This document shows positions 2,682-53,307 of a DNA stretch of 59,566 nt, piece by piece. Every line of letters starts with the position of its first letter. Position 1 is the first letter of the stretch. The notes below the pieces were generated by a model. The model ran no database searches. It was not told where the DNA came from and saw only the letters and a list, made by a program, of their open reading frames with translations. Origin of the DNA: an uncultured Lachnospiraceae bacterium (GTDB lineage Bacteria; Bacillota; Clostridia; Lachnospirales; Lachnospiraceae). The stretch covers positions 1 to 59,566 of the forward strand of contig CAMWJC010000010.1 in the NCBI GenBank assembly GCA_947174495.1, read 5' to 3'. Position numbers and translations under genes: made by a program.

Positions 2682-4166
2682 ATGGCAAAGGTGATCATGG
2701 TTCAGGGAACAATGTCTGGCGCGGGAAAAAGTCTTCTGGTGGCGGGACTTTGCAGGATTATAAAGCGGGATGGATACAAGGTAGCCCCTTTTAAATCCCA
2801 AAATATGGCGCTTAATTCTTTTGTGACAGAGGAAGGGCTTGAAATGGGGAGAGCTCAGGTCATGCAGGCCGAAGCTGCAGGGATTAGCCCGCTGGTCTGT
2901 ATGAATCCGATTTTGTTAAAACCTACAAACCATACCGGTTCTCAGGTGATTGTAAATGGAAAAGTCCTTGGAAATATGAGTGCAAGGGAATATTTTTCTT
3001 ATAAACGAAAGCTGGTTCCGGATATTATAAAAGCATTCCGTAAGCTTAATGAGATAGCGGACATTATTGTCATCGAGGGAGCGGGAAGCCCGGCGGAGAT
3101 CAATCTGCGTGAAAATGATATCGTCAATATGGGACTGGCGGAGATTGTTGATGCGCCGGTGCTTCTGGTAGGAGACATTGACAGAGGCGGCGTATTTGCT
3201 CAGCTCCTTGGAACATTGCTCCTGCTTACTAAAGAAGAAAAAGAAAGGGTAAAAGGGCTTATTATCAATAAATTCAGGGGAGATGCATCGCTCCTTGATT
3301 CCGGGATTGAAATATTGGAAGAGAAGGGAGGCATTCCGGTAACCGGAATTGTCCCTTATATGGAAATAAATCTGGAAGATGAGGATTCTCTGACAGAACG
3401 ATTTGACAGAAAGGAAAAAGGGAAGGTTGACCTGGCGGTCATCCGGTATCCCAGAATCTCTAATTTTACGGATTTCAATGTATTTGAGCAGATACCGGAA
3501 GTGTCTGTCCGCTATGTCACATCTGTGGGGGAATTAGGAGAGCCGGATATGATATTTTTGCCCGGCAGTAAAAATACCATGGGTGATTTGGAATGGATGT
3601 ATCAAAACGGGCTGGCAGATGCGGTGAAAAGGCTGGCGGAAAAAATACCGGTCTGCGGTATCTGTGGGGGATATCAGATGCTGGGGGAAGAAATTTCCGA
3701 TCCGGAAGGGATGGAGATGGGAGGAACCATGAGAGGGATGGGGTTACTGCCTGTCACTACCCGGTTGCATTGTGAAAAGATACGCCGTCAGGTACATGGA
3801 ACCATAAACCAGATGGATGGGATTTTTTCTGCACTTGCAGGACTTGATTTTGAAGGGTATGAGATCCATATGGGTAGCAGCGGGAAAAAAGAAGCAGTAT
3901 TTGTGACCGGTGAAAATAAAAATGTGTACGGAACTTATGTCCATGGGATATTTGACAGGGGCGCAATTGCATCCGCCCTTGTAAATACACTGGCTGAGAA
4001 AAAGGGTATTACCCTCGGTGTTCCCCTTATCGGTATAGAGAATGGAAGCTGTATGGATTACAGGGATTATAAAGAAAAGCAGTATGATAAACTGGCGGAT
4101 GTCTTATCGGAATATCTGAATATGGAGGAAATCTATGGAATACTCAGGGAAGCGCATATCAGGTAA
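2682..4166 (+). CDS. cbiP: Cobyric acid synthase
   Basis: This enzyme amidates the b, d, e and g side chains of adenosyl-cobyrinic acid a,c-diamide using glutamine and ATP. The 494-residue protein has an N-terminal P-loop-like ATPase domain ([16 protein letters not shown]) of the dethiobiotin-synthetase type. A C-terminal class I glutamine amidotransferase domain follows, with the nucleophile Cys in [11 protein letters not shown] and a His in [10 protein letters not shown]. An in-frame ATG at 2670 exists, but the ATG at 2682 is preferred: GGAGG at 2672-2676 lies five bases upstream and the protein then begins [13 protein letters not shown], as in the family. It follows the ABC ATPase by two bases and its 3' end overlaps cobT by 32 bp. 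Confidence 0.95.
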
Positions 4167-51711: not shown

Positions 51712-51782
51712 ATGAGAAAAATGTATATGGAAACACAGAAATGGCCATACTATTACTGTCATTGGTAAAAGGAGGTAAGAAA

Positions 51783-52097
51783 ATGGCCGAATTAAGATGT
51801 TCCGTAGACAATTGTGTTCATAACAAAAGCGAATACTGCTGTAAAGGTGATATTCTTGTGGGTGGCAAGCATGCCTGTTGTGATGACGATACCTGCTGCG
51901 AGAGTTTCTCGGAGGCAAAAAACGATCGTTTTACCAGCTCCATTGGTCATCCAAGTTCTGTGATTAGTATTGACTGTGAGGCGGTTAAGTGCATTTATAA
52001 CAGTAATTATAAGTGTACATCAGATCACGTCGATATCAAAGGATGCGGAGCCTGTAGCTGTGGAGAGACAGCCTGCTCCACTTTTCAGGAAAAGTAG
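51783..52097 (+). CDS. DUF1540 cysteine-rich protein (two domains)
   Basis: This 104-residue protein has two DUF1540 units. The first is LRCSVDNCVHNKSEYCCKGD and CCDDDTCCESF; the second is IDCEAVKCIYNSNYKCTSDH and CGACSCGETACSTF. Each has the C-x4-C-x7-C pattern, suggesting metal binding. Such proteins are common in Clostridia and spore formers; the function is unknown. AAAGGAGG precedes ATG 51783; the longer frame from 51741 includes this site. The giant palindrome begins on its stop codon. Confidence 0.9.
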   Translation: MAELRCSVDNCVHNKSEYCCKGDILVGGKHACCDDDTCCESFSEAKNDRFTSSIGHPSSVISIDCEAVKCIYNSNYKCTSDHVDIKGCGACSCGETACSTFQEK

Positions 52098-52572
52098 TAA
52101 TTCAGTCTCACTATTTAACCTGAACATGCTATGTGGGCGTTAGTTCCGGTTTGGTCTGTCTTTTGACAGTCTTTCGATGGATTTTGAAGAAATGGCTGTC
52201 AAAATAATATTGCTGCCCGGAACAGTTGTCTGAAATGCCCTGATCAAAACATCTGTTTGAGCGATAGAATTTTAAGGCAGAATCTAAGAATCCGCTCGAA
52301 GAAATGATAGTAACACCCCGTTTTCAAACTCACGTTGTTCGGACAAAGAAAACGGGGTGTACATTTACTTCGAGACGGATTCTTGATTCTGCACTAAAAA
52401 TTCTATAAGCTCTTCACATTTGTTTCGAATCAGGGCATTGAGTTTCTGTGCAGGGCAGCTCATAGATATTTTTGACAGCCATTTCCCAAAATCCCGAAAG
52501 CTGTCATAGCAGCCAAACCGGAACTAACGCCCACACAGCATGTTCAGATTAAGTTGTAAGACTGAATTATTA
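52095..52572. repeat. 478-bp giant imperfect palindrome (MITE-like or hairpin-RNA element)
   Basis: The whole interval folds on itself. The outer 60 bp of each side pair almost perfectly in a fixed register (position i with 104667-i); for example, GGGCGTTAGTTCCGGTTTGG at 52135-52154 is mirrored at 52513-52532. Inner sections (GAAATGGCTGTCAAAA at 52189-52204 against 52470-52485) match with small gaps. The centre is a perfect 13-bp stem ACACCCCGTTTTC/GAAAACGGGGTGT (52313-52325, 52348-52360) around a 22-base loop. The right arm read on the minus strand contains an open frame (52365-52523). A miniature inverted-repeat transposable element is the simplest explanation; a long hairpin transcript is an alternative. 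Confidence 0.85.
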
Positions 52573-52602
52573 TGACAGGTATTTTTATCCAGAGAGACAG
52601 GC

Positions 52603-52631: not shown

Positions 52632-52677
52632 ATTTAATAGCGGTGTCTGATGTACATAGATTTAAGGATTGAGGAAT

Positions 52678-53307
52678 ATGAAAAAGAAAATAATACTTGG
52701 AGCATTGCTTATGCTCATGCTTACAGGCTGTGAACAAAAGGTAATCACGGTTGCAGATATTCAAAGTGAAGACGGTCAGGAGACCGAGTACATAGAAATG
52801 AAGGAGTTTGAATTAAAGAGTGTCAAAGCTGAAGATGCAGAGGATTCGGTGCAATATTGTGCATTGCTGATACCTACTGGTTATAAGCCGTCGGAGGAGA
52901 TAGAAGGGATGTATGTCCATGAGAGAAGTCCGCTTGATTCCTCCAATATTTATTATACGGTTTCTCCGGGGGATAAGGACGGAAAGATATCAGAGAGGCT
53001 GACCAGGGAAGTTTACGAGGAAACCATTGAAAAGGCATTTTCGGAAGAAGGATGGGAAATAGATCTGCAAATTGAATCTTTTGAAGAGATTGATATGGAA
53101 GGGGTGCCAGGATATAAGATCAGGAGTACTTATGCAGTAGAAGATGGTCAGATTGAGCAATTGACCTATCTGATCATGGCTCATGATACCTATACCATTA
53201 CCTACAGCCAAATGGCGGATGATCAGCTTATGGCAGATTTTGATATATCTGGCGATGAGATCCGGCTGATTCGGAATGAAGAAAGCAGTCTGGCAAAGTT
53301 AAAATAA
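52678..53307 (+). CDS. Small lipoprotein of unknown function
   Basis: This 209-residue protein has a basic start, hydrophobic stretch and lipobox (MLMLTGCEQK; Cys about residue 18). The mature part is acidic with segments such as VQYCALLIPTGYKPSEEIEG and VPGYKIRSTYAVEDGQIEQL, the latter followed by LTYLIMAHDTYTITYSQM. This order resembles small PsbP/DUF-type lipoproteins, in which the YTITYSQ strand closes the fold. ATG 52678 is preferred; TTG 52669 would overlap the GAGGAA site. No partner is apparent. Confidence 0.75.
   Translation: MKKKIILGALLMLMLTGCEQKVITVADIQSEDGQETEYIEMKEFELKSVKAEDAEDSVQYCALLIPTGYKPSEEIEGMYVHERSPLDSSNIYYTVSPGDKDGKISERLTREVYEETIEKAFSEEGWEIDLQIESFEEIDMEGVPGYKIRSTYAVEDGQIEQLTYLIMAHDTYTITYSQMADDQLMADFDISGDEIRLIRNEESSLAKLK

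Follow-up and report, generated by a model that had tools for sequence, protein, structure and literature searches.

The window, the whole 59,566-nucleotide stretch of DNA analysed here from an uncultured Lachnospiraceae bacterium, carries a 478-bp palindrome between a DUF1540 gene and a lipoprotein gene, which raises the question of how such a structure came to stand directly at the end of a gene and how its two halves stay complementary. We compared the locus with the rest of its own genome (G000; 2.89 Mb in 112 contigs, 78.3% complete, so that absences from it are soft) and with the genomes of relatives, among them G032 and G028.

A long imperfect hairpin begins on a stop codon

An inverted-repeat search and folding confirmed that the palindrome at 52095-52572 is real, recovering its arms, inner blocks and 13-bp stem with a 22-base loop as the earlier note had described them from the letters. 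The outer arms (52095-52154 and 52513-52572, 60 nt each) show 90% complementarity, and inside them lie arms of 16 nt (52189-52204/52470-52485, 100%) and 13 nt (52264-52276/52394-52406, 92%), followed by a central stem of 13 nt (52313-52325/52348-52360, 100%) closing a 22-nt loop. No longer inverted repeat was found in the window in a search with arms at most 700 bp apart. Folded end to end as a single strand, the palindrome reaches -270.7 kcal/mol, compared to -118.5 ± 5.9 kcal/mol in shuffles (z -25.6), with 0 of 100 shuffles folding as low. The locus is made up of the following features.

51741..52097, plus strand: DUF1540 gene (open reading frame; Pfam E 2.2e-18)
52095..52572, no strand: whole hairpin element, type I copy C10 (repeat search, folding, genome copies; absent in G032 and G028)
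52098..52154, plus strand: left outer arm, its inner part fast-evolving
52165..52507, plus strand: core, 343 bp; the five G000 copies are mutually 86-95% identical
52313..52360, plus strand: apical stem (13 bp, perfect) with 22-nt loop; the stem covaries between copies
52513..52569, plus strand: right outer arm, the reverse complement of the left arm
52574..52586, plus strand: apparent remainder of the terminator that preceded the insertion, comprising the 3′ arm GACAGGTA and a T run; by inspection it continues the terminator-like hairpin seen in G032 and G028
52669..53307, plus strand: downstream lipoprotein gene (open reading frame and family search)

The stop codon of the DUF1540 gene (TAG, 52095-52097) is the first triplet of the element, as previously noted; an alternative start of this gene is possible at the ATG at 51783, behind AGGAGG. 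Elements of this kind, which we call type I, are built of three parts, namely an outer end bearing a TTCAG-like motif, an arm of ~30-45 nt and a core of ~343 nt. The outer part of the left arm, TTCAGnCTCAnnATTTAA, is recognisable in four of the five G000 copies, the exception being C5. What had been taken for a worn middle is made up of bulges and internal loops, and by eye many of these have counterparts at matching positions in other copies. The suggestion that preserved ends and a worn middle mark ends under selection is reversed when copies are compared, since the core is conserved and the arms vary.

The element is dispersed within one genus

The earlier proposal to look for further copies yielded four more near-full copies in G000 and others in congeners. 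With 30 matches in G000 at E <= 1, the full or nearly full copies are that of the window (C10), C31 (93%), C13 (88%), C5 (90%) and C1 (86%), each of which folds into one long hairpin. Among 60 genomes searched, ten had a match, G000 included, all belonging to the same genus, with no match in the 24 genomes of other families; a second query gave 6 to 37 matches in each of four positive relatives, where matches are not equal to copies, because palindromes match on both strands. Apart from G000 itself, a shallow search of 299 genomes spread over the family picked up nothing beyond 34 matching bp in one other genus, which is weak evidence of restriction, as two candidates were scored per genome. 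Arm complementarity is present in all 15 type I copies, and the TTCAG-like outer motif is clear by eye in about ten of them (unclear in C5, L048, L051, L075 and L079).

The whole element had no match in plasmids or phages, exact patterns of three arms had none in viral contigs, and the core pattern found nothing in the genome contigs or viral contigs searched. In G000 itself, nothing matched the arm region of the window copy except other copies (C13). Rfam gave no match within the elements searched, the only hits being 6S and a sub-threshold rli40, both outside them, and nothing listed in searches of open-licence PMC papers was recognised as this element family.

Relatives carry empty sites, mostly at gene ends

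A search with 2.6 kb around the element against 37 genomes of the genus, own included, identified G032 (flanks 94-95% identical) and G028 (80%) as matching both window flanks while skipping the element. Inspection of the sequence in these two genomes showed a hairpin resembling a terminator, GATACCTGT...ACAGGTATTTTT, after the DUF1540 stop. The 5′ arm and loop of that hairpin (~36 bp of target) are missing from the window, where GACAGGTATTTTT remains immediately after the element, so that G032 and G028 read as carrying an intact terminator where the window has the element.

For each of the five G000 loci, one or both of the two relatives compared have an empty site. Where G000 has the element, G032 has 5 bp at the C31 site and nothing at the C5 site, and G028 has other sequence at both. 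The C1 site is likewise empty in G032, with the left flank only partly comparable in G028, and the C13 site is empty in G028 and matched on the right side only in G032. At C31, the two strands of a flanking 10-bp stem (CAGCCTCCGC/GCGGAGGCTG) close into a hairpin in G032, and in G000 the element stands between them; insertion into a hairpin loop and deletion from G032 are indistinguishable there, because G028 is without that stem. At C1, it is the T run of a terminator-like hairpin that holds the element. None of the empty sites compared gave evidence of a target-site duplication, which counts against a mobile element.

By naive open reading frame calls, 13 of the 15 type I copies have a gene 3′ end facing them on at least one side, ten of them within 20 nt, counts that include some reading frames of ~72 aa and approximate element ends for ten copies, and that have no chance baseline; the other two sit between divergent genes, again a point against the mobile-element reading. 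A hairpin of -10 kcal/mol or lower was found within 45 nt at all five G000 type I sites, compared to 18% of 400 random intergenic points, although at C10 and C31 this hairpin lies in the gene end and not in the terminator. At C31 (L030:2979-3462), the last codons and stop of a reading frame, ABC transporter-like by eye, lie inside the outer stem of the palindrome, and the element thus borders two convergent gene ends. Beside C1, a 6S RNA gene (L033:2686-2893; Rfam E 4e-8) directly adjoins the copy, and to its right (L033 ~3478-3572) lies a separate repeat of ~95-100 bp, absent from that G032 site and present at about ten other G032 places (81-100% identity).

Given the further copies and the empty sites in relatives, the element is best read as MITE-like, recently inserted and dispersed, with gene 3′ ends as its most frequent sites.

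Arms change faster than the core and change together

Within each of the 15 copies, left and right arms match with scores of 33-74, compared to a highest shuffle score of 18-26. Between different copies, the arms have a median score of 11, against 10.5 in shuffles, with p <= 0.005 in five of the 105 comparisons. Among pairs whose cores are at least 0.93 identical, of which there were five, p for arm similarity ranged from 0.005 to 0.8. The idea that arms are newly captured sequence, either spacer-like or target-derived, first arose because arm similarity stood at or barely above chance in copies whose cores are 93-96% identical. We rejected this, because arm identity falls with core identity and the arms are thus inherited: across 88 ends, its median drops from 0.86 at core identities of 97% or more to 0.61-0.81 at 94-97%, and comes close to chance below 90%, in a set that includes partial copies, type II elements (described below), some copies twice, since a palindrome matches both anchors, and a few unrelated places (e.g. 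L027, L144 and L152), and whose top class is mostly type II, the type I pairs there being L047-L063 (0.86) and L048-L049 (0.76). By eye, the inner arms do not occur in the empty targets, and the outermost 20 nt of C5 resemble the G032 site. A model of self-primed fold-back synthesis, in which the arms would be perfect and the core boundary sharp, is likewise not supported: left/right identity peaks at 0.97 at 16-25 nt outside the core and falls gradually outwards. As judged from these alignments, the arms descend with the core and change several times faster.

Paired positions were followed in two sequence-based alignments, A1 of the five G000 copies and A2 of six copies of G012 and G018, with the structure taken from one member, which favours the figure for cells paired and, to a lesser degree, that for two-sided changes. 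In A1, 95.2% of cells were paired and 43 of 190 pairs carried two-sided changes, and in A2 the figures were 91.3% and 48 of 187; 0 of 500 shuffles, which do not preserve relatedness, came as high in either, and slid controls gave at most 7 and 13, respectively. The two outermost helices of A2, paired in only 58% and 51% of cells, were counted against this. Two-sided changes fell on 28 of 54 arm pairs and 15 of 136 core pairs in A1, and on 25 of 45 and 23 of 142 in A2. The apical stem also covaries between copies, reading CACCCCG/CGGGGTG versus CGCCCTG/CAGGGCG. Individual comparisons gave 11-31 two-sided and 7-17 broken pairs in the ten of A1, and 11-26 and 12-34 in the fifteen of A2, where broken pairs can exceed two-sided ones at higher divergence (up to 34), a further point counted against.

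Taken together, what these sequence comparisons establish is the dispersal of the element, its empty sites in relatives, its position and its covariation.

A sister family of hairpins is not kept matched

A second kind of element, type II (e.g. C20 and C28), consists of two hairpins with core-homologous stretches between ends reading TTAACGTTTAGC or close to it. This end occurs at 83 places in G000 within one mismatch, compared to 21 for a reversed control, and by a manual count of matches forms 21 convergent pairs; strong hairpins were obtained on folding at the twenty places examined. Our reading is that the TTAACGTTTAGC and GTTCAGC ends are linked.

Eight type II hairpins, in 28 comparisons, showed 0-3 two-sided changes and 3-26 broken pairs. 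For the twelve of these comparisons at a divergence of 0.13-0.17, two-sided changes numbered 0-3 and broken pairs 12-19; the six type I comparisons in that range had 11-21 and 9-14, respectively, and an orthologous type II pair (G000 C41 and G032 C26) had 2 two-sided and 12 broken. Since type II hairpins are not kept matched, palindromy alone does not keep arms matched in these cells. The type I pattern may reflect either selection during spread or arm-to-arm copying by the spread itself, and the type II contrast could stem from mutation of those copies after insertion. A flanking hairpin at -10 kcal/mol was seen at 2 of 19 TTAACG/type II sites, no enrichment over the 18% of random intergenic points, which we counted as a point against the mobile-element reading.

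The TTAACGTTTAGC-ended family in G000 (e.g. L095-L114) consists mostly of hairpins of 370-440 bp with several alternative complementary stem sequences; several of its elements lie at contig ends, and in several copies the end abuts a TAA, by eye a possible stop codon. At one site, a 430-bp TTAACG element of G000 (L095, C4:52007-52436) has the same end positions as a different, type II element of ~645 bp in G032 (L147:2123-2768, C29), which would reflect either an exchange of the interior between shared ends or repeated insertion at one spot.

Alternative explanations for the matched arms

A structured non-coding or 3′-UTR RNA, be it a long double-stranded RNA, an RNase III substrate or a terminator, would fit the strong covariation, the recurring internal loops and the position directly after stop codons, with the fold selected at each locus. 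If one RNA strand were selected, however, G.U would be expected to exceed A.C in the element's own orientation, as a one-strand RNA should tolerate G.U, yet G.T and A.C were about equally common, at 14 versus 10 positions in A1 (reference C10) and 14 versus 19 in A2 (reference G018_C22), with p 0.49-1.0 over 11 choices of reference; type II hairpins were A.C-leaning in four of eight rows taken as reference, one at p 0.04. This argues against a one-strand RNA, including the transcribed long double-stranded RNA considered earlier, and for pairing kept at the DNA level. Relative to the gene 3′ end that they face, C10 and C5 run in the same orientation and C13 and C1 in the opposite one, with C31 placed between two convergent ends. 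The elements searched have no Rfam match, the window site is without the element in the two relatives examined, and the single orthologous type II comparison had 12 broken pairs against 2 compensated, all of which make an RNA function appear quite improbable.

Host replication errors, in which template switching between the arms rewrites one from the other, would need no selection, and would fit both the scarcity of wobble intermediates beside two-sided changes (15 one-sided cells to 63 two-sided in A1) and the lack of strand bias. Against it, arms do not stay matched in the type II hairpins of this genome and of a closely related one, and asymmetric core bulges, by eye, persist between species instead of being erased, so we consider this explanation unlikely. 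That the palindrome is an assembly artefact or a single chance inverted duplication, for which the draft state of the 112-contig assembly might speak, is refuted by homologous hairpins in several other genomes and by coherent empty sites, and has practically no probability left; the one-off head-to-head duplication once suggested is likewise excluded by the conserved family.

Neither Y1 transposase nor group II maturase tracks the element

A Y1 transposase (Y1_Tnp, PF01797; RAYT) was absent from five of seven element-bearing genomes tested (G000, G018, G012, G015 and G025), as well as from G003, and present in G032, G028, G027 and G023. A group II maturase (GIIM) was found in three of ten genomes (G012, G018 and G032) and was absent from four of the seven element-bearing genomes tested (G000, G015, G025 and G028); from these absences, no enzyme tested tracks the element. 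All 21 convergent TTAACGTTTAGC pairs are 110-628 bp apart, and no transposase bracketed by terminal inverted repeats was found among them. Nor did open reading frame listings of 20 stretches beside single TTAACG-type ends in G000 (78% complete) reveal a reading frame bracketed as in a longer autonomous copy.

A probable mobile hairpin that may be selected for its pairing

The evidence favours a non-autonomous mobile DNA element of ~450-480 bp that forms one long imperfect hairpin and is probably moved in trans via its folded DNA. Insertion is mostly at gene 3′ ends and, in G000, within or beside intrinsic terminators; in the window, the element appears to have taken the place of the 5′ half of the DUF1540 terminator. 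A trans-acting enzyme would move the element and require folded DNA, as a one-strand hairpin or a cruciform, so that only copies with intact pairing would propagate. Pairing would thus be selected during spread, much as in REPINs, and decay after a copy is fixed. We propose that only pairing counts in the arms, leaving them free to change sequence, and that the core is read for sequence as well as pairing. A bolder possibility, which we hold only tentatively, is a new class of mobile DNA with a hairpin intermediate, replacing terminators without a Y1 or group II enzyme, in which one arm would be rewritten from the other each cycle, such that arm sequence turns over fast with pairing intact.

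Bacterial MITEs, such as the pneumococcal repeats and the Coxiella MITEs, share with the element a short, non-coding, multicopy nature and empty sites, and probably inverted repeat ends. The MITE reading put forward in the earlier note is borne out by copies in genome and genus and by the empty sites; no target duplication was evident, and no mobilising transposase or parent IS was found. The element also differs in that the palindrome spans all of it and its arms co-evolve. Terminator hairpins serve as targets for group IIC introns too, which insert downstream of them, but the elements searched had no Rfam intron match and the maturase is missing from the four genomes named above. In a study of Pseudomonas REPINs and RAYTs (PMC3116915), REP units measure ~20-60 bp, and REPINs are, like the element, non-autonomous, dispersed, extragenic hairpins. 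Compensatory changes in the hairpin, a REPIN feature, are found in the type I element in both A1 and A2. Compared to REPINs as presented there, the element is a single hairpin of ~470 bp with its conserved part in the core, and five of the seven element-bearing genomes tested have no Y1/RAYT protein. By analogy, it may work like a very long REPIN.

At the window locus, then, a recent, MITE-like giant hairpin, evidently mobile, appears to have taken over the site of a terminator. The family offers a natural case of palindrome arms co-evolving, apparently at the DNA level, with empty sites for comparison, a decaying sister family (type II) as a control and no known enzyme attached to the element. 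How small palindromic elements move and stay palindromic thereby becomes a testable question, and the element points to a route by which mobile DNA may take over a gene's terminator.
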